A stretch of 6,953 nucleotides of DNA from Clostridia bacterium. Lineage in GTDB: Bacteria > Bacillota_A > Clostridia > UMGS1883 > HGM11501. Made by a program: the position numbers and the translations under genes. Position 1 is the first letter of the stretch. Every line of letters begins with the position of its first letter. The notes under the pieces are model-generated. The model searched no databases. It was not told where the DNA came from and was given only the letters and a program-made list of their open reading frames with translations. The DNA lies in contig JAFXHP010000022.1 of the NCBI GenBank assembly GCA_017536285.1, forward strand, positions 1-6,953, in the 5' to 3' direction. Positions 1 to 6,953 of the stretch are shown here, piece after piece.

Positions 1-281
1 GTAATGTCATATTCGGGGACATAAATTCTGTGTCCCGATAAGATTTCGCCTGACGGAAAGTTTTTTCGGGGCTCATAGTCCGTTGTAAGGGGTAAAAATA
101 AATCATCACCCACCCGGCGTCCGTTTATGTAGCAATGGAAAAAGCCAAGTCCTAAAACGCGTAAAGTCGCCTTTTTCACCTCTGAAACAGAAAATTTTCC
201 TCGGAGTATGTAAAAGGCATCGGTATTATCATCGTTGCTTCCAAGCCACAGGGCGGAAGCGAAAACTTCATTTTGTTTCAT
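1..281 (-). CDS. Alpha-L-rhamnosidase-like protein (GH78), N-terminal part, cut by the window edge
   Basis: The frame opens at ATG 281-279 and runs off the window, giving 93 residues. The start is supported by an AAGGAG site 7 nt upstream. The sequence fits the N-terminal beta-sandwich domain of bacterial alpha-L-rhamnosidases: a 'GKFSVSEVKKATLRVLGLG' strand, then 'YINGRRVGDD', then 'LPLTTDYEPRKNF'. This is the usual order of xxYINGxRVGD and xTDYxxR in that domain. Such enzymes remove terminal L-rhamnose from plant or bacterial glycans; the catalytic (alpha/alpha)6 barrel would lie outside the window, so catalysis cannot be judged. No signal peptide is visible (MKQNEVFASALWLG), which suggests a cytoplasmic enzyme. 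It lies 11 bp behind the membrane gene 293-733 and is probably co-transcribed with it. It is likely the chromosomal gene bordering the cassette array rather than part of it. Another sugar hydrolase with the same accessory domain remains possible. Confidence 0.72.
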   Translation of the reverse strand, partial: MKQNEVFASALWLGSNDDNTDAFYILRGKFSVSEVKKATLRVLGLGFFHCYINGRRVGDDLFLPLTTDYEPRKNFPSGEILSGHRIYVPEYDI

Positions 282-288
282 GATAATT

Positions 289-294
289 CTCCTT
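289..294 (-). promoter_or_regulatory. Ribosome binding site of the rhamnosidase-like gene, overlapping the upstream stop codon
   Basis: AAGGAG on the minus strand, 7 nt before ATG 281. It shares bases with the TAA stop (295-293) of the preceding membrane gene, reading TAAGGAG, so translation of the two genes is likely coupled. Confidence 0.7.
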
Positions 295-733
295 AAACTA
301 TTTTGGCTTTCTTTTTATCAAGATGCCGTCCAAAAAGTACACCTGAGGCTAAAAAGAAAATTTCCAAAATAAATGCTAAAGCGGAACATAAAATTTCTGC
401 ACCTGTCGGCAGAAAATAGTTTATTTGAGAAAATAAAATATATCCGCCTGCAACTGGGCCTAAAATGGGAGAATTAAAAAATGAAGCAAACACAAGAACT
501 GTAACAGTCCATAAAAAATACCACAGGGATATTTTCGGGATACTTGCTTTGTGATTTTTAAATCCTGCAAGAAAGTATAAAACAGCTGCGGCTAGTATTC
601 CTGCTGCAGCACCTACAATAAGCCCTGTTTTTGAAGTTATTTTTAAAATATATACGGCAAAGGTCGCTGCCGCACATTCTACCGCGAAACCGATTGGAAG
701 TATCAGTAATCTCCATATAATAAGCTTTTTCAC
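293..733 (-). CDS. Four-helix membrane protein, single unit; putative immunity partner of the cassette 3 tail
   Basis: A 146-residue integral membrane protein of no family I recognise. Hydrophobic segments lie at about residues 5-30, 37-57, 68-88 and 112-135. The end is basic (RHLDKKKAKIV), which suggests a cytoplasmic C-terminus. The start is GTG 733, with AGAGGG 6 nt upstream; the overlapping ATG at 735 is followed at once by TGA, so it is not the start. The product begins MKKL like the 306-residue neighbour. Two features recur in the neighbouring membrane proteins: a GGY turn between helices 3 and 4 (AGGYILFSQINYFLP, about 95-109) and a terminal SGVLFGRHLDKKKA (130-143). The gene starts 24 bp after the tail gene 758-1102. 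By analogy with colicin-type immunity proteins it could protect against that tail, but this is inferred from position only. A transporter or secretion role is not excluded. Confidence 0.8.
   Translation of the reverse strand: MKKLIIWRLLILPIGFAVECAAATFAVYILKITSKTGLIVGAAAGILAAAVLYFLAGFKNHKASIPKISLWYFLWTVTVLVFASFFNSPILGPVAGGYILFSQINYFLPTGAEILCSALAFILEIFFLASGVLFGRHLDKKKAKIV
306..346 (-). repeat. 41-bp repeat at the end of a membrane gene, copy A
   Basis: This segment encodes SGVLFGRHLDKKKA. It matches 1653-1693 at 40 of 41 bases by my alignment; the single difference changes Leu to Phe. The flanking coding sequence is much more diverged, so the block looks like a recent exchange point or a strongly constrained end. 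Confidence 0.75.
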
Positions 734-757
734 ATCTATCCCTCTTTTTAATTAATA

Positions 758-1102
758 CTAATTATTATAATCATTCATAGTGCCGTTTTTCCATAAATCC
801 TCTTCTTGTAAAGGATCTTCTGCCACCTCTGTTCCGGGGTTCATACCGCTGACGGCATCTTCGCCAAGTAAAAGTGATAGCAAATATAAAGGTAAGTTTA
901 GCAGCCATGCCCAAGGAGAATAGTTTTCTTCCTCTTCCGATGCCTTTTTAGCTTCCTCTTTTTCTCTCTTTAGCCTTTCCTGTTCTCGCTTATAGTCCTC
1001 CATATTAAATGGCGGAGAATATGGAGCGAGCCAGGGTGTTGCGTTTTCACCTTTTCTGGAAACGGAATAATCATCGGAAAAGCCCATCTCGGCTTTGGTC
1101 AC
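758..1102 (-). CDS. Cassette 3: shared linker plus variable tail 3 (orphan C-terminal module)
   Basis: The frame gives 114 residues from GTG 1102, or 109 from ATG 1087. Neither start has a convincing ribosome binding site, so translation is uncertain. Residues 6-49 (from MGFSDDYSVSRK through the charged helix MEDYKREQERLKREKEE) are nearly identical to the matching parts of 2554-2904 and 3860-4216. After KKASEEEEN the sequence is unique: an aromatic and hydrophobic stretch (SPWAWLLNLPLYLLSLLLGE), then an acidic end finishing in NDYNN. The hydrophobic stretch could form one membrane helix. Upstream, the same frame reads LPVTGVLDDVTKAEM, the end of a peptidoglycan-binding domain, and is then cut by a stop at 1141-1139. 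A GCG codon in cassette 1 is GTG here, which creates the apparent start by chance. The membrane gene 293-733 follows at 24 bp. Most likely this is a displaced 3' module of a larger protein, expressed poorly or only after recombination. Confidence 0.55.
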   Translation of the reverse strand: MTKAEMGFSDDYSVSRKGENATPWLAPYSPPFNMEDYKREQERLKREKEEAKKASEEEENYSPWAWLLNLPLYLLSLLLGEDAVSGMNPGTEVAEDPLQEEDLWKNGTMNDYNN

Positions 1103-1130
1103 ATCGTCAAGAACACCTGTTACCGGAAGC
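951..1130 (-). repeat. Constant cassette segment, copy 3 (180 bp)
   Basis: Direct repeat of 4080-4259, with 5 mismatches in 180 bases by my alignment and no gaps, and of 2771-2947. It covers LPVTGVLDD...MGFSDDYSVSRK...SPPF...KREKEEA. Identity stops abruptly at both ends. Synonymous positions are almost unchanged, which points to recent duplication or gene conversion rather than protein-level constraint alone. Confidence 0.93.
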
Positions 1131-1156
1131 CAAGAGTATTATTGGATTTTCTTTAC
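1103..1156 (-). pseudogene. Remnant of a peptidoglycan-binding domain upstream of tail 3, broken by a stop
   Basis: In frame with tail 3, this stretch reads VKKIQ-stop-YSWLPVTGVLDDV. It aligns without gaps to IKKFHEKKGLPVTGVLDDE in cassette 2 and IKEFQEERELPVTGVLDDA in cassette 1. The stop is TAA 1141-1139. Only the last part of the domain remains, and it overlaps the last codons of the membrane gene 1153-1593 in another frame. The match 5' of LPVTG is short, so that part is less certain. Confidence 0.6.
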
Positions 1157-1593
1157 ATAGCAGAAGTTTCACTTTTTGTTGCGAGAAGCTTTTTTAACAA
1201 GTAACCGACTAAAATTAAAATGCCGGGGGATAAATAACCCAAAATTCTGATGAACCACGCCCAAAAAGCGTGACCTGTATAAAGCAGGTCAACTGTTGCT
1301 AAAGTAAAAGCATAGGCTCCGCCATAGGGGATAACAGTAAGGTCTGATATAATTTTATGTGAGAACATAATACTGCCAAGAATAATCTGTATTAATCTTG
1401 ATAAAAAGGGAAGAAGGGATGTAATCGGTGCAGCTGCAAGGGCTGTTTTTTTAGTACTGAAAACTCCCGCAATAAAATATAAAATGCTGAATAAGACGCA
1501 AAGCACCCATCTTGCGGGATTTGGTACTAAAAGATAATTTATTATCACAGATATTATTCCGAGTCCTAAGTGTAAAGAAAGTATTTTTAACAT
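1153..1593 (-). CDS. Four-helix membrane protein, single unit, second membrane gene of cassette 2
   Basis: A 146-residue protein with hydrophobic segments at about 3-23, 28-46, 55-77 and 112-136. The start ATG 1593 has GGAG 6 nt upstream. It lies 19 bp behind the 306-residue gene, so the two are probably one operon. It is the most diverged single-unit relative but keeps family landmarks: LYFIAG after helix 2 (38-43; compare VLYFLAG and LWYFFAG in the neighbours), a GGAY turn (91-94), and a final helix ending GILILVGYLLKKLLATK. Its stop (TAA 1155-1153) lies inside the remnant peptidoglycan-binding sequence of cassette 3, so the final residues are read from that remnant in a different frame. 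No tail gene lies directly before it, which makes it either an extra partner in cassette 2 or an orphan whose tail was lost. Function is unknown; immunity is inferred from context. Confidence 0.78.
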   Translation of the reverse strand: MLKILSLHLGLGIISVIINYLLVPNPARWVLCVLFSILYFIAGVFSTKKTALAAAPITSLLPFLSRLIQIILGSIMFSHKIISDLTVIPYGGAYAFTLATVDLLYTGHAFWAWFIRILGYLSPGILILVGYLLKKLLATKSETSAM

Positions 1594-1612
1594 ATTTATC
1601 TCCGGTTATAAA

Positions 1613-2533
1613 TTATTCTGATGCTTTTTCTTCATCATTTTTGAAGGACGGTGCTTTCTTTTTATCAAAATGCCGTCCAAAAAGTACACCTGATGAAATT
1701 AAGGCGAGTTCTACTGCAAAAGCTGATAGATAAATTATGGGCTTTGAGTCGGTAAACACTGATACAGTGCTCAAAATGGATATATAGCCTCCGCTGAGAT
1801 AAAGGGGGATAAAGGAGGTGCTTACAAATCTTAATATTACAGCAAGTACGTTCCATAGAGAAATGGCTGAAAGGGTTTTCAATAAATTGCCCTTTGAGGT
1901 TTTTATTCCGGCAAAAAAGTACCAAAGGCAACAAAGAGCACCTGAAATTATACGTCCTGATTCAAGTGCGATGTTTTGTTTAAGTACTGTATAGGGGATT
2001 TTTAAGAAAATAAGAGTTATTGAGTAGAAAAAGAGCATAGAGAGAATCCACAATAACAGAGAAGATATTTTATAATAAGTGAAAAATGGACGATTGCTGT
2101 ATTTGTTGGAAAGTCTGCCGTATATTATTCCGCTCATAAGGATAATCATCTCAAAAGCAAATCCAAGTATAAGACACAGTGCAGGAGATGTCACTGGAAA
2201 CATCACCGGGATGAAGTTGGTATAACAATAAAGAGCACCGCTTAGTAATAGGAGCAGAGGTTGACGGGTAAGAAGCACTGCAGAAGATATTATTATTGAC
2301 CAGATAGAAAAAATAAGTAAAAGCTTTTTGAGATTTACATCATAATACTTTTTCCCCATAAAAAAATATAATACAGAAACTAAGGCTATTGACAGACGAA
2401 CTGTAAGAGAATAGAAAGCTTCTGTGTCTAACCAATACTTCTGATCGAATAGTGTCAGTAATAGTAGTGTGAGGATTACGGGTATAAGCCATACAACATA
2501 GATTATAAAACGTGCAAATACTAATTTTTTCAT
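1613..2533 (-). CDS. Two-unit (about eight-helix) membrane protein; putative immunity partner of tail 2
   Basis: A 306-residue protein made of two tandem copies of the four-helix unit. Unit A is about 1-145 and ends MSGIIYGRLSNKY; unit B is about 150-292 and ends SSGVLFGRHFDKKKA. Further internal matches are VLYFFMGKKYYDVNLKKLLLIFSIWSI (55-80) against LWYFFAGIKTSKGNLLKTLSAISLWNV (203-229), and LSGALYCYTNFIPV against LSGGYISILSTVSV between helices 3 and 4 of each unit. The start ATG 2533 has an AAGGA site about 11 nt upstream, and the product begins MKKL like 293-733. It begins 20 bp after tail gene 2554-2904 and is followed at 19 bp by 1153-1593. The final 14 residues (NDEEKASE region) are charged and probably cytoplasmic. 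It is not a transporter family I recognise. I infer an immunity-like role from the fixed pairing with a variable hydrophobic tail. Confidence 0.82.
   Translation of the reverse strand: MKKLVFARFIIYVVWLIPVILTLLLLTLFDQKYWLDTEAFYSLTVRLSIALVSVLYFFMGKKYYDVNLKKLLLIFSIWSIIISSAVLLTRQPLLLLLSGALYCYTNFIPVMFPVTSPALCLILGFAFEMIILMSGIIYGRLSNKYSNRPFFTYYKISSLLLWILSMLFFYSITLIFLKIPYTVLKQNIALESGRIISGALCCLWYFFAGIKTSKGNLLKTLSAISLWNVLAVILRFVSTSFIPLYLSGGYISILSTVSVFTDSKPIIYLSAFAVELALISSGVLFGRHFDKKKAPSFKNDEEKASE
1653..1693 (-). repeat. 41-bp repeat at the end of a membrane gene, copy B
   Basis: This is the partner of 306-346, with 40 of 41 bases shared. It encodes SGVLFGRHFDKKKA at the end of unit B of the 306-residue membrane protein. 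Confidence 0.75.
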
Positions 2534-2553
2534 TTCTAATTACATCCTTCTTA

Positions 2554-2904
2554 TTAATTATAACCGTCAACAGGATAAGGATAGTTGGCATTATCGATAG
2601 CATTACCGCCTTGCAATAGATAATCGGATTGGGTTTCGGGAGTTTTATTTTCTTCGGCTAAATCAGCTCCGGATGGTGCGGCGTCTTTAAGGCTTCCAAA
2701 ACCTGTGAATAGCCAACCTAAAAATTTAGCTACCGCTTCTTTGTTTTTGTAATCTTCGTAATATTTTTTAGCCTCTTTTTCTCTCTTTAGCCTTTCCTGT
2801 TCTCGCTTATAGTCCTCCATATTAAATGGCGGAGAATATGGAGCGTGCCAGGGTGTTGCGTTTTCATCTTTTCTGGAAACGGAATAATCGTCGGAAAAAC
2901 CCAT
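2554..2904 (-). CDS. Cassette 2: shared linker plus variable tail 2 (orphan C-terminal module)
   Basis: There are 116 residues from ATG 2904, the only ATG, GTG or TTG available in frame after the upstream stop; no clear ribosome binding site precedes it. Residues 1-43 (MGFSDDYSVSRK...SPPFNMEDYKREQERLKR) match the other two cassettes almost exactly, with one residue fewer in the charged helix (KREKEAKK against KREKEEAKK). The tail is unique: YYEDYKNKEAVAKF, then a hydrophobic, Gly-rich stretch (FLGWLFTGFGSL), then an acidic, Asn-rich end (ENKTPETQSD...NANYPYPVDGYN). The hydrophobic part is short for a full membrane helix and could be an amphipathic insertion segment. Upstream in frame is half of a peptidoglycan-binding domain with no start. 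The two-unit membrane gene follows at 20 bp. The sequence does not decide between a small secreted or membrane-active domain and a silent donor module. Confidence 0.6.
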   Translation of the reverse strand: MGFSDDYSVSRKDENATPWHAPYSPPFNMEDYKREQERLKREKEAKKYYEDYKNKEAVAKFLGWLFTGFGSLKDAAPSGADLAEENKTPETQSDYLLQGGNAIDNANYPYPVDGYN

Positions 2905-2947
2905 GGCTTTCTTTGTTTCATCATCAAGAACGCCCGTTACCGGAAGC
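2771..2947 (-). repeat. Constant cassette segment, copy 2 (177 bp)
   Basis: Direct repeat of 951-1130 and 4080-4259, one codon shorter. The part coding for the linker and charged helix is almost identical to the other copies. The part coding for the end of the peptidoglycan-binding domain has diverged more (VLDDETKKAM against VLDDATKAEM), so the breakpoints or age differ along the segment. Confidence 0.9.
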
Positions 2948-3000
2948 CCTTTTTTCTCATGGAATTTCTTTATGCCTGCTTCTGTTTTTGTACTAAAAAT
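2905..3000 (-). pseudogene. Half of a peptidoglycan-binding domain upstream of tail 2, without a start
   Basis: In frame with tail 2 the sequence reads IFSTKTEAGIKKF, HEKKGLPVTGVL and DDETKKA. This aligns without gaps to the cassette 1 domain (TFDASTEAAIKEF, QEERELPVTGVL, DDATKAE). The first half of the domain (xxLQxxLxxLGY) is absent, and no ATG, GTG or TTG occurs in frame back to the upstream stop. Positions 2970-3000 overlap the end of the membrane gene 2970-3827 in another frame. Confidence 0.72.
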
Positions 3001-3827
3001 ATAATAAGATAGGTTATTGCAAACAGAATAGTACGGACAAGGGCAACTCCAATGATAATGGTAAGGAAATAGTAAAAGTTATGTTCTGCAAATAAAAGCA
3101 GAAGTAATATAAACTCCATAGAAAATAATGCAGAAACAGATAATATCCTTGTTTGCTTTTTGCCGATTACAGAACGGTTTAAAATCGGAATATATACAGG
3201 TTGAATTAAAAGCGTAAAAATAATAAGGTTAGCAGCAAACAAACAAAGATTATATGCGGTGTGACTTTCTTCAAAAAACGGCTCTGTAAAGATGAGTATC
3301 AGCCAAGATGATATAAACAGAAAAAGGGGAAGAAAGGTTAAGACAATTCTTGACACATTGCTCAAAGGCTTATAATTTTTTTCTTCAAGATGTCGTAAGT
3401 ACTTTTCTTTGTTTACCTTTTTGCCCAAAGTTACTCCGAGCAATATGAGAAGCCAGGGCGTAAATAAAAAGATATTGTTAATAATTCTTAAGAGAATATA
3501 ATTATCGGAATAAAAAAGGGGCATTGAAGAAAGCGAGTATATGTGCACACCGCCATATAATAATCTCTGAAATATTCCTAAAACATCATATTTCAGCAAG
3601 TAAATAAGAAAATAGGAATCGATGATATAAGCCAGGATTGAAAGGGCCGGCAGCAATAACAGATGCCTTTTTCTGACTTTATAGAAGAAAAAGCCCTCTG
3701 TAATAAAAAACAATGAGATAAGGATAGAAATTATTGTTATGGTAGTTGCAGACGCACCGGATGTATTCAACAAATAACCTACTAGGCCGAGTAATGCATT
3801 TGAAACAAGGATTATAAGTAACTGCAT
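2970..3827 (-). CDS. Two-unit membrane protein; putative immunity partner of tail 1
   Basis: A 285-residue integral membrane protein with hydrophobic segments at about 3-22, 28-49, 56-78, 112-134, 158-180, 190-213, 228-247 and 252-278. The start ATG 3827 has a strong AAAGGAGG site 9 nt upstream, the best in the window. The first half carries the family landmarks: a YGGVHIYSL turn (91-99) between helices 3 and 4, and a helix ending PWLLILLGVTLGKKVNKEK, comparable to SGVLFGRHLDKKKA in the neighbours. The second half is more diverged and lacks the GG turn. Its last residues (IFLVQKQKQA) are encoded by cassette 2 peptidoglycan-binding sequence in a different frame, and its stop lies there too. 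It begins 32 bp after tail gene 3860-4216. Immunity is inferred from the pairing; no enzyme or transporter motif is visible. Confidence 0.82.
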   Translation of the reverse strand: MQLLIILVSNALLGLVGYLLNTSGASATTITIISILISLFFITEGFFFYKVRKRHLLLLPALSILAYIIDSYFLIYLLKYDVLGIFQRLLYGGVHIYSLSSMPLFYSDNYILLRIINNIFLFTPWLLILLGVTLGKKVNKEKYLRHLEEKNYKPLSNVSRIVLTFLPLFLFISSWLILIFTEPFFEESHTAYNLCLFAANLIIFTLLIQPVYIPILNRSVIGKKQTRILSVSALFSMEFILLLLLFAEHNFYYFLTIIIGVALVRTILFAITYLIIFLVQKQKQA

Positions 3828-3836
3828 TTTGATATT

Positions 3837-3844
3837 CCTCCTTT
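3837..3844 (-). promoter_or_regulatory. Strong ribosome binding site of the 285-residue membrane gene
   Basis: AAAGGAGG, 9 nt before ATG 3827. The preceding tail modules have no comparable site, so the membrane genes appear better equipped for translation than the tails. Confidence 0.75.
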
Positions 3845-3859
3845 ACGGATTTTGAGATT

Positions 3860-4216
3860 TTATACCCCCATATAATTGTGAATTATTTGTTCGCCATGTC
3901 GTTCGGATAATTCGTTCAAATCATTTTCTATATTTTTTTGATATTCATCGTAAATTATATCTGACTCTTGAGAAAAGGGTTGTGCCCCTCCATGGTTATA
4001 AAGAAAACCGGCAATGAGAGTTGCTAAAAAAGAGAAAGGGTAACTCTCGTTTTCTTCCTCATCTTTTTTTGCTTTTAAGGCTTCTTCTTTTTCTCTCTTT
4101 AGCCTTTCCTGTTCTCGCTTATAGTCCTCCATATTAAATGGCGGAGAATATGGCGCGTGCCAGGGTGTTGCGTTTTTACCTTTTCTGGAAACGGAATAAT
4201 CATCGGAAAAGCCCAT
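3860..4216 (-). CDS. Cassette 1: shared linker plus variable tail 1 (orphan C-terminal module)
   Basis: There are 118 residues from ATG 4216, but the open frame continues upstream through a complete peptidoglycan-binding domain (4217-4501) with no start codon, so this ATG is probably internal and has no clear ribosome binding site. Residues 1-49 are the shared part (MGFSDDYSVSRKGKNATPW, SPPF, MEDYKREQERLKREKEE). The tail is unique: acidic EEENES, a hydrophobic stretch (YPFSFLATLIAGFLYN) long enough for a short membrane helix, then a polar, Glu- and Asn-rich helix-like end (DEYQKNIENDLNELSERHG) finishing NYMGV. The membrane gene 2970-3827 follows at 32 bp. The general plan (wall-binding domain, Pro-rich linker, charged helix, variable end) fits the C-terminus of a polymorphic secreted protein. 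The toxin role is inferred; a wall-anchored structural protein is the main alternative. Confidence 0.62.
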   Translation of the reverse strand: MGFSDDYSVSRKGKNATPWHAPYSPPFNMEDYKREQERLKREKEEALKAKKDEEENESYPFSFLATLIAGFLYNHGGAQPFSQESDIIYDEYQKNIENDLNELSERHGEQIIHNYMGV

Positions 4217-4259
4217 CTCGGCTTTGGTCGCATCGTCAAGAACACCTGTTACCGGAAGC
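4080..4259 (-). repeat. Constant cassette segment, copy 1 (180 bp)
   Basis: Direct repeat of 951-1130 (175 of 180 bases) and of 2771-2947. Here it sits inside the longest version of the frame, so this copy best shows the ancestral context: peptidoglycan-binding domain, linker, charged helix, variable tail. Confidence 0.93.
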
Positions 4260-4501
4260 TCTCGCTCTTCCTGAAACTCCTTTATAGCAGCTTCGGTACT
4301 TGCGTCAAAGGTTCCTGTGATGTCAACATCTGTGTAGCCGAGTTCATTAAGCCTTAATTGAATTCCGCCTACAACATTTTCGTCGGAATAGCCGCAGGGG
4401 ACGTAAGTTTTGTCAGTTTCAATGTTGGATGACGAAGCTTGTTTCGCATTACAGGAAGGTTCAAAATTGCTATAATTTGTTATAGCACCTGTTTTCTTAA
4501 A
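4217..4501 (-). pseudogene. Peptidoglycan-binding domain (PG_binding_1 type) in frame with tail 1, 5' end missing
   Basis: Translation continuous with tail 1 reads KKTGAITNYSNFEPSCNAKQ, then a Ser/Thr-rich spacer, CGYSDENVVGG, and a full peptidoglycan-binding repeat: IQLRLNELGY, ITGTFDASTEAAIKEFQ, LPVTGVLDDATKAEM. These are the usual xLQxxLxxLGY...TGxFDxxTxxAIKxFQ...L.VTGxxDxxT landmarks. The frame opens after TAG (4504-4502), which lies inside the last codons of the ABC-F gene, and contains no ATG, GTG or TTG before 4216. No signal peptide is present. It looks like the 5'-truncated end of a larger gene joined onto the ABC-F stop. Use of a non-standard start (ATA or ATT) is possible but nothing supports it. 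Confidence 0.75.
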
Positions 4502-6050
4502 CTATCTTTGTGCTCCAGGAGGAAACGTCCCAAACCTCGTCCACGATACCCTGATAAAAATCCGCTTCGTGGCATACAAGTAAAACTGTTCCCTTAAATT
4601 CTTTTATAGCCTTTGAAAGCTCTTCCTTTGCCATAATGTCAAGGTGGTTTGTCGGCTCGTCCAATACTAAAATATTTGCAGGGCTCTGCATAATTTTACA
4701 AAGGCGTACCTTGGCGTTTTCACCGCCCGACAACACCTTCATCTGGCTTGTGATATGGTCGGTGGTAAGACCGCACTTTGCAAGGGCGGCTCTCGCCTCG
4801 GCGTTGGTAAGGGAGGGGAAGGTGTCCCAGAATTCGGCAAGGGCGGTTTTGTCGGAGGCAATTTCCTCCTGCTCAAAATAGCCCACGTTTATAAACTGGT
4901 CGTGCTGAATATCACCCTCGATGGGAGGGATAAGCTTAAGTAATGTTCTTAAAAGTGTGGATTTTCCGAGACCGTTAACGCCTTTTATGGCGATTTTTTT
5001 GTTTCGCTCAATCTCAATGTCAATCTTTTTGGAAAGGGGAGAGTCATAGCCTATGACAAGATCCTTTGCGGAAATTACCACCTTGCCGGGTGTACGGTCA
5101 GTCTTAAAGGAGAAGGTGGGGCGAATCTTTTCGGGAGCAATGGTAATTTTCTCCATCTTGTCAAGCTCTCTCTGCCTTGAACGTGCCAATGTTGCGGTTG
5201 CGGCTCGTGCCTTGTTTCTTGCAACAAAGTCCTCAAGGTCGGCAATTTTCTTCTGCTGTTTCTTAAATGCCTGCTCAACCTGCTGCTTCTTCAAGTCGTA
5301 CATTCTTAAAAAGTCATCGTATGTGCCCTTGTATCTTGTCAAAACCGTGTTTTCAAGGTGATAGATTACGTTTGTAACCTTAGTCAGGAAGGGCATATCG
5401 TGGGACACTAAGATAAATGCGTTTTCGTAGTTCTGCAAAAAGTCTGTAAGCCAATTTATATGATTTTCATCAAGGAAGTTTGTGGGCTCGTCCAAAATTA
5501 AAATCATGGGGTTTTCAAGAAGCACCTTGGCAAGCAAAACCTTTGCACGCTGTCCGCCGGAAAGCTCCGTTACATCCTTGTCGAGGCCTATTTCCGACAA
5601 GCCGAGGCCGTTGGCGTACTCGACGATTTTTGTGTCAATGGTGTAATAGCCGGAGGAGTCCAGGATTTCCTGAATTGTGCCGACCTCCTCCATAAGATTT
5701 GCCATTTCATCGTCGGAAACGTCCGCCATTTTGTCATATATGGCAATCATTTCAGCTTCCAGGTCGGAAAGGTGGGAAAAGGCACCCCGGAGTATGTCCA
5801 TAATGGTTTTGCCCTTCTCCAGTGTGGAATACTGGTCTAAATAGCCGTAGGTTATGTGACGGCACCACTCAACCTTACCCTCCTCGGGGGTAAGCTCGCC
5901 TGTTATTATTTTAAGAAAGGTGGACTTTCCTTCGCCGTTGGCACCGATTAGTCCGATATGTTCGCCCTTAAGCAGGCGGAAGCTTGCATCCTCTAAAATC
6001 TGCCTTCCGCCAAAGCTGTGGCTTATGTTTTCTGCGTTTAATATACTCAT
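4497..6050 (-). CDS. ABC-F family ATPase (ribosome-associated, YdiF/YbiT-like)
   Basis: A complete 517-residue protein with two ATP-binding domains and no membrane segment. Domain 1 has Walker A GANGEGKS (36-43), signature LSGGQ (163-167), Walker B ending DE (187-188) and switch His in SHD (216-218). Domain 2 has Walker A GVNGLGKS (357-364), signature LSGGE (440-444), Walker B ending DE (464-465) and a variant switch, CHEADF, in place of the common SHDRxF. The charged linker (about 237-305: YDLKKQQVEQAFKKQQ, FVARNKARAATATLARSR) corresponds to the segment that reaches the ribosomal P-site tRNA in ABC-F proteins. Members act on stalled ribosomes; some protect against ribosome-targeting antibiotics, but which type this is cannot be read here. 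The start ATG 6050 has AAGGAG 5 nt upstream. The C-terminus (VWDVSSWSTKIV) looks natural, so the cassette array joined behind an intact gene. The upstream spacer holds hairpins that could act as an attenuator. Confidence 0.93.
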   Translation of the reverse strand: MSILNAENISHSFGGRQILEDASFRLLKGEHIGLIGANGEGKSTFLKIITGELTPEEGKVEWCRHITYGYLDQYSTLEKGKTIMDILRGAFSHLSDLEAEMIAIYDKMADVSDDEMANLMEEVGTIQEILDSSGYYTIDTKIVEYANGLGLSEIGLDKDVTELSGGQRAKVLLAKVLLENPMILILDEPTNFLDENHINWLTDFLQNYENAFILVSHDMPFLTKVTNVIYHLENTVLTRYKGTYDDFLRMYDLKKQQVEQAFKKQQKKIADLEDFVARNKARAATATLARSRQRELDKMEKITIAPEKIRPTFSFKTDRTPGKVVISAKDLVIGYDSPLSKKIDIEIERNKKIAIKGVNGLGKSTLLRTLLKLIPPIEGDIQHDQFINVGYFEQEEIASDKTALAEFWDTFPSLTNAEARAALAKCGLTTDHITSQMKVLSGGENAKVRLCKIMQSPANILVLDEPTNHLDIMAKEELSKAIKEFKGTVLLVCHEADFYQGIVDEVWDVSSWSTKIV

Positions 6051-6198
6051 AATTACTCCTTAGGCCGATGGGAGTCAAACCCTATAAGCCTTAAACTTGT
6101 TAAATTTTTATTCTTAAAATTTGTCGGCCTCGTAAGGCGCCGGCCTGACTTCGCCCTCCGCATTTCAATTATATAAAATTTTCCTGCGTTTATGCGAT

Positions 6199-6256
6199 AA
6201 AAATTCCCGTAGAGTATAGGCGTTTTTGCAAAACGCCGACACTCGTAGGAATTTTT
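6199..6256. repeat. Long imperfect palindrome
   Basis: A 58-bp inverted repeat with a 3-nt loop at 6227-6229. The inner arm GGCGTTTT/AAAACGCC and the outer arm AAAAATTCC/GGAATTTTT pair perfectly; a few mismatches or wobble pairs lie between them. Confidence 0.85.
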
Positions 6257-6296
6257 GAGCAAAAATCTTACCCTCGATGGGTATAGATTTTTACTC
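6257..6296. repeat. Second palindrome, abutting the first
   Basis: The arms are GAGCAAAAATCTTACCC and, reversed and complemented, GAGTAAAAATCTATACCC, around a short TCGAT loop. It starts at the base after the first palindrome, so the two could form a double-hairpin structure. Confidence 0.8.
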
Positions 6297-6337
6297 ATAG
6301 GTCGAAGAGCTTAAAACTCTTAAATTTTGATGGAAGT

Positions 6338-6396
6338 CAAAGAAAATACAAAAATAATACTGGCGTATATTTGCAGTATTTTCTGCAGTATTACGC
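6338..6396 (-). terminator. Candidate terminator of the beta-lactamase-family gene
   Basis: In the minus-strand RNA, GCGTA/TACGC and TGCAG/CTGCA can form a two-part stem (6363-6396). A T-rich run (TATTATTTTTGTATTTTC) follows about 29-80 nt after the beta-lactamase-family stop codon. The stem has an internal loop and the T-run is interrupted. AATACTG can also pair with either of two CAGTATT copies, so the true fold is uncertain. Confidence 0.4.
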
Positions 6397-6424
6397 AAAA
6401 TTTATGTTTTTAAGCCTTATTGGG

Positions 6425-6953
6425 TTAGGCTCCCGTCGGCCTAAATGAATCAAATACTGCCTGTTCAAATCTGACCGCCGATTTATTGCCCGCTCCGCCG
6501 TCAAACTGGGAGTTTTTCATAAATACGGCACATACTTCGTTTTCAGGGTCAATCCAGAAGTGGGGGCCGTATGCACCCGACCATCCGAAAGTACCCACGG
6601 GAAGAATCTGGTAATCAGGATTTGTAATTACACGGACACCAAGGCCCCAGCTGTACGCGTTTTGCGGCATAACATCACGGGGAACCAACGGCGTTTTCAT
6701 AAGGCGTAAGGTTTCCTTTGAAACAAGGGCCTTTCCGTCTTCAGTCTCACCTTCTGCCAAAAGCATTTTTGCAAAGGCTGAATAGTCGTGCAGGGATGAG
6801 AAAAGTCCCGCGCCGCCAAGAGGATGTGTCCAGGGATAGTCTCCGAAAATGCATCCCGGGTAAGTTTTGCCGACAGCATTTTTCTCGTCAATTTTAACAT
6901 GCATTGTAATTATACGGCTTTCCTGCTCCGATGTGGGGATAAAGGCGGTGTCA
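6425..6953 (-). CDS. Beta-lactamase-family serine hydrolase (class C/esterase-like), C-terminal part
   Basis: The last 175 residues of a protein whose start lies beyond the window; the frame stays open to base 6953, so the internal ATG 6904 is not the start. The sequence begins DTAFIPTSEQESRI, then has GGAGLFSSLHDYSAFAKMLL, the usual GGAGLxSTxxDxxxFxxMLL block of the beta-lactamase/penicillin-binding-protein-like family (PF00144). It ends with GTFGWSGAYGPHFWIDPENE. The WSGAYG segment sits where this family has its third active-site motif (the KTG/HxG position). The SxxK and YxN motifs would be upstream and are not visible. Such proteins are often esterases or peptidases rather than antibiotic-degrading enzymes, and the substrate here cannot be told. 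It ends 374 bp before the ABC-F gene, with hairpins between, so it is probably a separate transcript. Confidence 0.85.
   Translation of the reverse strand, partial: DTAFIPTSEQESRIITMHVKIDEKNAVGKTYPGCIFGDYPWTHPLGGAGLFSSLHDYSAFAKMLLAEGETEDGKALVSKETLRLMKTPLVPRDVMPQNAYSWGLGVRVITNPDYQILPVGTFGWSGAYGPHFWIDPENEVCAVFMKNSQFDGGAGNKSAVRFEQAVFDSFRPTGA

Follow-up and report, generated by a model that had tools for sequence, protein, structure and literature searches.

We describe a 6,953-nt stretch of DNA (the window) from a Clostridia bacterium (GCA_017536285.1, contig JAFXHP010000022.1), which probably carries an array of orphan tails and immunity genes from a polymorphic-toxin-like system that is restricted to one genus and acts through small, membrane-active tails. 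In this array, whose genes all lie on the minus strand, fragments of a constant part, the head, continue into different C-terminal tails, and each tail is followed by a gene for a multi-pass membrane protein. At the level of sequence we find direct repeats with a switch to new tails, pairing of tails with membrane genes, displacement of cassettes at a site common to three genomes, heads of mosaic make-up, lost starts of head-tail genes and retained membrane genes. The features are as follows, in the order of transcription, with PG for peptidoglycan and TM for transmembrane.

4497–6050, minus strand: ABC-F ATPase gene (NF000355), intact; the truncated head begins at its 3′ end
3860–4501, minus strand: copy 1, head without start (N-domain lost), PG_binding_1 (PF01471; about 4214–4366), linker and tail A (3863–4048)
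4055–4259, minus strand: constant repeat copy 1, from the direct-repeat search
2970–3827, minus strand: mem285, multi-pass membrane protein with two diverged halves (8 hydrophobic segments), partner of tail A
2554–2998, minus strand: copy 2, second half of PG_binding_1 (PF01471), linker and tail B (2557–2745)
2743–2947, minus strand: constant repeat copy 2, from the direct-repeat search
1613–2533, minus strand: mem306, doubled 4-TM unit by comparison with mem321 and mem307, partner of tail B
1153–1593, minus strand: mem146′, single 4-TM unit (4 hydrophobic segments), orphan partner
758–1138, minus strand: copy 3, last PG_binding_1 residues, linker and tail C (761–925), from the repeat and open frame
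926–1130, minus strand: constant repeat copy 3, from the direct-repeat search
293–733, minus strand: mem146, single 4-TM unit, partner of tail C, which it follows in 3/3 loci
3–281, minus strand: start of an alpha-L-rhamnosidase gene (PF08531, E=2e-9), the other fixed flank of the site

A single direct-repeat family was found in the window, 205 nt long and in three copies (926–1130, 2743–2947 and 4055–4259). Pairwise ungapped identities are 190/205, 170/205 and 166/205, far above chance; an earlier note on this DNA, made from its letters alone, had called the constant part DNA-identical and about 180 bp long, and the copies are merely similar (81–93%). For each pair of copies, identity in 15-nt bins drops to background about 180–210 nt into the segment, and where the 205-nt similarity ends a different tail begins (A, B or C), as that note had seen. 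The distance from tail stop to membrane-gene start is 32 bp (3860 to 3827), 20 bp (2554 to 2533) and 24 bp (758 to 733), in agreement with the 20–32 bp given before. The three tail/membrane pairs previously described as a three-cassette array stand, but a fourth membrane gene, mem146′ (1153–1593), had not been listed; it comes after mem306 with no tail ahead of it.

The constant part had been described as the end of a PG-binding domain, a linker and a charged helix. Copy 1 has PG_binding_1 (Pfam PF01471, E=4e-16). Copy 2 matches over the second half of the domain only (E=1.4e-5), and Pfam gives no PG_binding_1 match in copy 3, where just the last domain residues remain. Upstream, copy 1 reaches 4501, running into the ABC-F stop codon (4497–4499), and copy 2 extends to about 2998, overlapping the 3′ end of mem285 (stop at 2970). 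The last codons of mem285 (2970–2998) are the DNA that encodes the copy 2 PG-binding domain in another frame; the 3′ end of mem285 is a gene end built by recombination.

None of the three head-tail frames, which are open for 213, 143 and 126 codons, has a start at its front; each of the four membrane genes has one, preceded by a Shine-Dalgarno-like sequence. In copy 1 an in-frame stop lies just upstream of 4501 and no start codon occurs before 4216; the heads of copies 2 and 3 begin at 2998 and at about 1130, likewise without the N-terminal part. The earliest in-frame ATG or GTG codons inside the heads are at 4216 (copy 1), 2904 (copy 2) and 1102 and 1087 (copy 3), and no Shine-Dalgarno-like sequence precedes such codons in any of the three copies. 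A short product from the head-internal ATG codons is possible. Ahead of the four membrane-gene starts the sequences are AGGAGG-like, AAGG, GGAG or AGAGGG: mem285 has AAAGGAGGAAT before its ATG, mem146′ has GGAG, and mem146 has a GTG start with AGAGGG ahead of it. The ratio of nonsynonymous to synonymous substitution rates (dN/dS) between orthologues is 0.19–0.56 for membrane genes and 0.19–0.20 for heads; tail C, compared with a cut copy in the related genome G002, gives 0.93 over 40 codons with just 4 differences. On these signals the tails appear to be silent and the membrane partners not.

The same site was recovered in two Clostridia metagenome-assembled genomes, G002 (JAFQQJ010000019.1, from goat colon) and G001 (JAUNRD010000223.1). 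G002 has, in order, ABC-F, a head truncated as in the window, tail D, mem321, a cut tail C, mem146 and the rhamnosidase. The G001 contig starts inside a longer head and has from its edge this head with tail C, a mem146 of 140 codons, the last 15 codons of tail B, mem307 and the rhamnosidase. ABC-F flanks the site in the window and G002, the rhamnosidase in all three, and the shared flanks are 94–97% identical to the window. One site thus holds the cassettes A-B-C in the window, D-(C fragment) in G002 and C-(B remnant) in G001. Tails and membrane genes co-vary, as had been foreseen: tail C adjoins mem146 in 3/3 loci (window, L032 and L034), tail B or its last codons stand ahead of mem306/307 in 2/2 loci (the remnant in G001 being one), and tail D with mem321 and tail A with mem285 are each seen in 1/1 locus. 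Tail A plus mem285 (4049–2998) has no counterpart at the G001 or G002 site, tail A being unmatched in both loci, and the mem146′ region (1626–1129) has none at either site. Membrane genes can also stand as orphans, mem146′ in the window and mem307, with its 15 tail-B codons left, in G001.

The heads are mosaic. From 4520 to 4401, a stretch spanning the ABC-F/head junction, the window and G002 are identical at 120/120 bases, and beyond 4401 identity falls to 19–29 of 30 per bin. Downstream of 4401 the window head shares 108/109 residues with a protein from the searches described below (P0003), yet the tails differ, A in the window and D in P0003. A head so nearly identical before a different tail, with the G002 identity ending at 4401, is what exchange between copies of the head leaves behind. 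Short blocks that the membrane genes have in common at their 3′ ends (39–41 nt at 95–97%) mark where the exchanged segments end on the other side.

The 18 tail sequences collected fall into seven types, A to G. Types A (62 residues) and B (63) agree with the 60–70 residues first estimated, but C has 55. A, B, C and F do not align with one another. B and D have their last 41–45 residues in common (hhalign 98%) and differ in the first 20. Weak C-terminal similarity is seen between P0007 (type A) and P0012 (type G), E=0.001, and between P0028 (type B) and P0009 (type E), E=2e-5; profile comparison gives A/G and B/E no support (8% and 13%). The tails after the constant segment are therefore not all versions of a single domain, nor is every type independent of the others. 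What nearly all of them have is a form, a hydrophobic 18-mer of near-zero charge and then an acidic part (17/18 tails); this criterion, which was fixed after the tails had been seen, is passed by 0/24 C-termini and 23/743 windows of control open reading frames (ORFs), some of them overlapping or spurious. Each tail has one hydrophobic stretch, and some are near-TM. The tail structure model has a predicted local distance difference test (pLDDT) score of about 30. A glycine-zipper tail as in TelE was looked for by eye in tails A–C and none was seen.

The membrane partners belong to a single family built from a 4-TM unit, which is present once or twice per protein. The units of mem146, both halves of mem306, mem321 and mem307 are related (25–34% identity between units), with mem285 and mem146′ as distant members (22–25%, E to 4e-9, the value for mem146′ against the N half of mem285 at 22% identity). 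Between mem306 and mem307 of G001, identity is 94% in the N half and 94% in the C half; between mem306 and mem321 of G002, it is 46% in the N half and 95% in the C half. This last pattern is in step with tails B and D, one half being common and the other different. No Pfam or NCBIfam family was found above cut-off for the four membrane proteins, PHROGs and PADLOC gave no match at E<=0.1, and mem285 has no match in 4 related genomes.

Full-length relatives of the truncated heads were sought among 5.8 billion proteins with three query types: the G001 protein gave 11 matches (572 candidates), the N-domain of P0003 gave 3 (117 candidates) and a 12-row alignment gave 38 (7999 candidates), of which 22 were read. 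The motif MGFxxDYS occurs in 15 of the proteins read, with tail types A to F among them; these 15 include the window translations P0014 and P0017 and the G001 protein P0001. Five proteins are complete (P0003, P0005, P0008, P0010 and P0013; 349–381 residues), with the order helical N-domain, PG_binding_1, Pro-rich ATPW..P.SPPFN linker, charged helix and tail. The first 84 residues, the conserved N-domain, are modelled as helices with good confidence and matched nothing known in the domain searches made. P0012 (tail G) and P0028 (tail B-like) have the N-domain in common with the full-length proteins and no PG domain; its joining in P0028 to a tail B-like sequence indicates that tails move between heads. 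In P0007 a relative of tail A stands behind a second PG-binding domain (PG_binding_3-like), where the charged helix otherwise stands.

The specific constant segment was found in 2/391 relatives, both of one genus. At E<=0.001 the head matches 57/99 relatives, strongly in G001 (3.5e-134) and G002 (6.5e-66) only, the next best match (E=1e-10) lying over the PG-binding part. A wide distribution of the head was rejected after inspection of five weaker loci, of which three are by eye ordinary PG-binding enzymes or hydrolases and two had printed frames in which the match was not visible. The one N-domain profile match in 391 relatives (G359) is at two places inside an apparent mobilisation (relaxase) gene and was taken as false. 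A 4-TM profile matched 3/196 (G001, G002 and G025), and the G025 match (E=9.5e-4) was taken as chance. Prophage or plasmid origin was also rejected: window 761–4500 is unmatched in phages, and P0003 in phages and plasmids. IMG/VR yielded a single weak PG-domain locus, L037, which served solely to supply control ORFs. When the window proteins and P0003, P0005 and P0007–P0010 were scanned with Pfam, PG-binding domains alone came out above cut-off, with no CdiA, Rhs or MafB, and the LXG/WXG N-terminal domain is absent from these six proteins of relatives. On the domains tested, the system does not belong to the contact-dependent growth inhibition (CDI), Rhs or LXG families.

Several marks of polymorphic toxins can be recognized in the array. 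A conserved N-terminal part is joined to exchangeable C-termini of types A to G, as in polymorphic toxins generally; a partner gene directly downstream goes with the C-terminus, in the few loci available; and C-terminal fragments without a start lie next to partner genes that have one, as in orphan cdiA-CT/cdiI pairs. From these we infer toxicity, membrane action, immunity, delivery and a role of silent tails as donors. The full-length protein, as seen in relatives, starts with a soluble helical N-domain and a PG-binding domain, continues with a linker rich in Pro and a charged helix, and ends in a swappable tail of ∼55–65 residues. Its head would bind the cell wall, the tail would most likely insert into or perturb the target membrane, and the 4-TM protein from the next gene would most likely be the matched immunity. 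Recombination within the head that the copies share, and within the 3′ ends of membrane genes, would bring in new tail-partner pairs; older pairs would be pushed towards the rhamnosidase, their tails left without starts and the membrane partner kept intact, and silent tails would serve as donors. Tentatively, and with some doubt, we go further and suggest genus-restricted Gram-positive polymorphic toxins, colicin-like without a secretion machine: they may be released without a signal peptide, bind the wall by the PG-binding domain and act through a swappable membrane-acting tail, which at ∼60 residues would be one of the smallest tips of any polymorphic toxin and would be blocked by a matched 4-TM immunity unit, with doubled units possibly covering two toxins and the array storing displaced pairs.

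A number of observations weigh against a toxin system. The DNA context comes from three loci only (window, G001 and G002). Tail D of P0006/G002 fails the hydrophobic criterion, no tail matches any known toxin in Pfam, NCBIfam or PHROG, and the tails are much shorter than CDI ionophore domains. The dN/dS of membrane genes, up to 0.56, also fits weak constraint. The toxin reading is weakest in its route of delivery and its recipient gene. The earlier note had proposed to look for a full-length gene with a start and an export signal; the five complete proteins of relatives have the start, but there is no evident signal peptide, since no hydrophobic segment lies near their N-termini, as judged from hydrophobic segments alone. 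Export markers were searched for in four relatives (G001–G004, 65–97% complete), the window's own genome not being among them: EssC, of the type VII secretion machinery, is above cut-off in 0/4, each having one sub-threshold FtsK-sized match, and LXG, WXG100 and phage-sheath, the last as a sign of contractile injection (eCIS/PVC), are each found in 0/4. In 14 control genomes the matches for EssC, LXG, WXG100 and sheath were 8, 1, 2 and 3, with 1, 1, 1 and 3 above cut-off. The N-domain is undetected in G002 (97% complete), and in G001 too, so a full-length recipient gene is shown in no array-holding genome.

Other explanations have been weighed against the toxin/immunity array. Antigenic or phage-receptor variation, in which a wall-bound surface protein varies its tail by drawing on silent cassettes and is anchored or displayed by the membrane protein, would agree with the PG-binding domain, the start-less silent copies and the mosaic heads. 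We consider it unlikely, because each tail moves together with a membrane gene of its own, membrane genes persist without tails (mem146′ and mem307), which an anchor would not need, the full-length proteins have no evident export signal and most tails cannot be aligned, as variants of a single exposed domain would be. The co-varying partner argues likewise against a regulatory or structural pair, where the tail helix would bind the 4-TM protein within one cell (for example as an envelope sensor or a spore-coat or cortex component) and the array would have arisen by duplication and drift. An abrupt switch to unrelated tails with tail-less partners kept would be unexpected for housekeeping, as would restriction to 2/391 relatives, both in one genus; we regard such a pair as improbable, even though the PG domain of P0005 matches the spore cortex-lytic SleB model TIGR02869 (E=5e-12, far below its cut-off) and some tails have a near-TM hydrophobic stretch.

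Decay would leave debris of gene-family recombination, silent copies without present function, and the truncated heads, the cut and frameshifted tail C of G002 and the G001 mem146 cut to 140 codons are what it would produce. The four window membrane genes are nevertheless open, with starts, Shine-Dalgarno-like sequences and dN/dS below 1, the 213-, 143- and 126-codon frames are still open, and the staying together of tails and partners is left unexplained; we judge decay, too, to be improbable. If the toxin/immunity array is the right explanation, uncultured gut Clostridia would have a compact polymorphic weapon apparently without the usual secretion machines, with new families of tails and of 4-TM immunity proteins, and a simple system for studying co-evolution of a hydrophobic tip and its membrane partner, in which specificity could be mapped directly on tails B/D and mem306/mem321.

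Upstream of the array, the ABC-F gene matches the ribosomal protection-like ABC-F model NF000355 with 391.2 bits, just above the cut-off of 380, and its dN/dS of 0.03 against G002 indicates strong constraint. Window 6056–6448, bounded by a 36-nt inverted repeat (86% complementary, arms 313 nt apart), is partially matched in G001 (6 places), G002 (8) and G004 (5) but nowhere in G003, and has no match at the corresponding place in G002; it looks like a dispersed repeat of the miniature inverted-repeat transposable element type. A beta-lactamase-family gene (PF00144) at 6425–6952 is cut by the window edge, and the G002 DNA is 96.5% identical there.

In the literature searched no system of this build is named, which does not prove its absence from print. 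Pore-forming colicins have no export signal, a membrane-acting C-terminus and a multi-TM immunity protein, traits that the system proposed here would share. No sequence relation to them was found, the targeting part here is PG-binding and the tails are far smaller.

Polymorphic toxin systems are described as having a conserved N-terminal part with exchangeable toxic C-termini, a downstream immunity partner and a trafficking module (PMC3482391). Among them, orphan cdiA-CT and rhs-CT fragments have no translation starts, and the cdiI and rhsI immunity genes keep theirs (Poole et al. 2011, PMC3150448). Like these orphans, the array has fragments of a constant part that lead into unrelated C-termini, a separate downstream gene for each C-terminus, and shuffling between strains at one locus. 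In contrast to them, the proteins scanned here show nothing of CdiA, VENN or Rhs, the head is made of the N-domain and PG_binding_1, the tails have ∼60 residues, the partners are 4-TM proteins and the host is one of the Clostridia. CDI ionophore toxins are five-helix bundles behind entry domains, delivered by CdiA and matched by polymorphic immunity proteins (Halvorsen et al. 2024, PMC11630599); the polymorphic membrane-active C-termini and fast-diverging matched immunity proteins proposed here would resemble them, but each tail has one hydrophobic stretch and no entry domain was recognized. Firmicute type VII secretion system membrane toxins, TelE/TipE (PMC10434224), TspA/TsaI (PMC9484751) and EsxX (PMC12744356), would resemble the proposed system in their Gram-positive membrane-acting C-termini and recombining arrays of immunity paralogues; here, in contrast, there is no LXG or WXG domain, and markers of that system were not found in the four relatives.

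In Vibrio type VI secretion system arrays, new pairs displace old effectors and immunity genes are kept (Kirchberger et al. 2017, PMC5361080), and the displacement logic here matches both these arrays and the CDI orphans (PMC3150448). The Vibrio arrays belong to other bacteria and another secretion system, and have no effector fragments of the present kind. In the way it works, the array resembles orphan arrays already described; what is new, within the databases searched, is its head, its tails and the family to which the partners belong.

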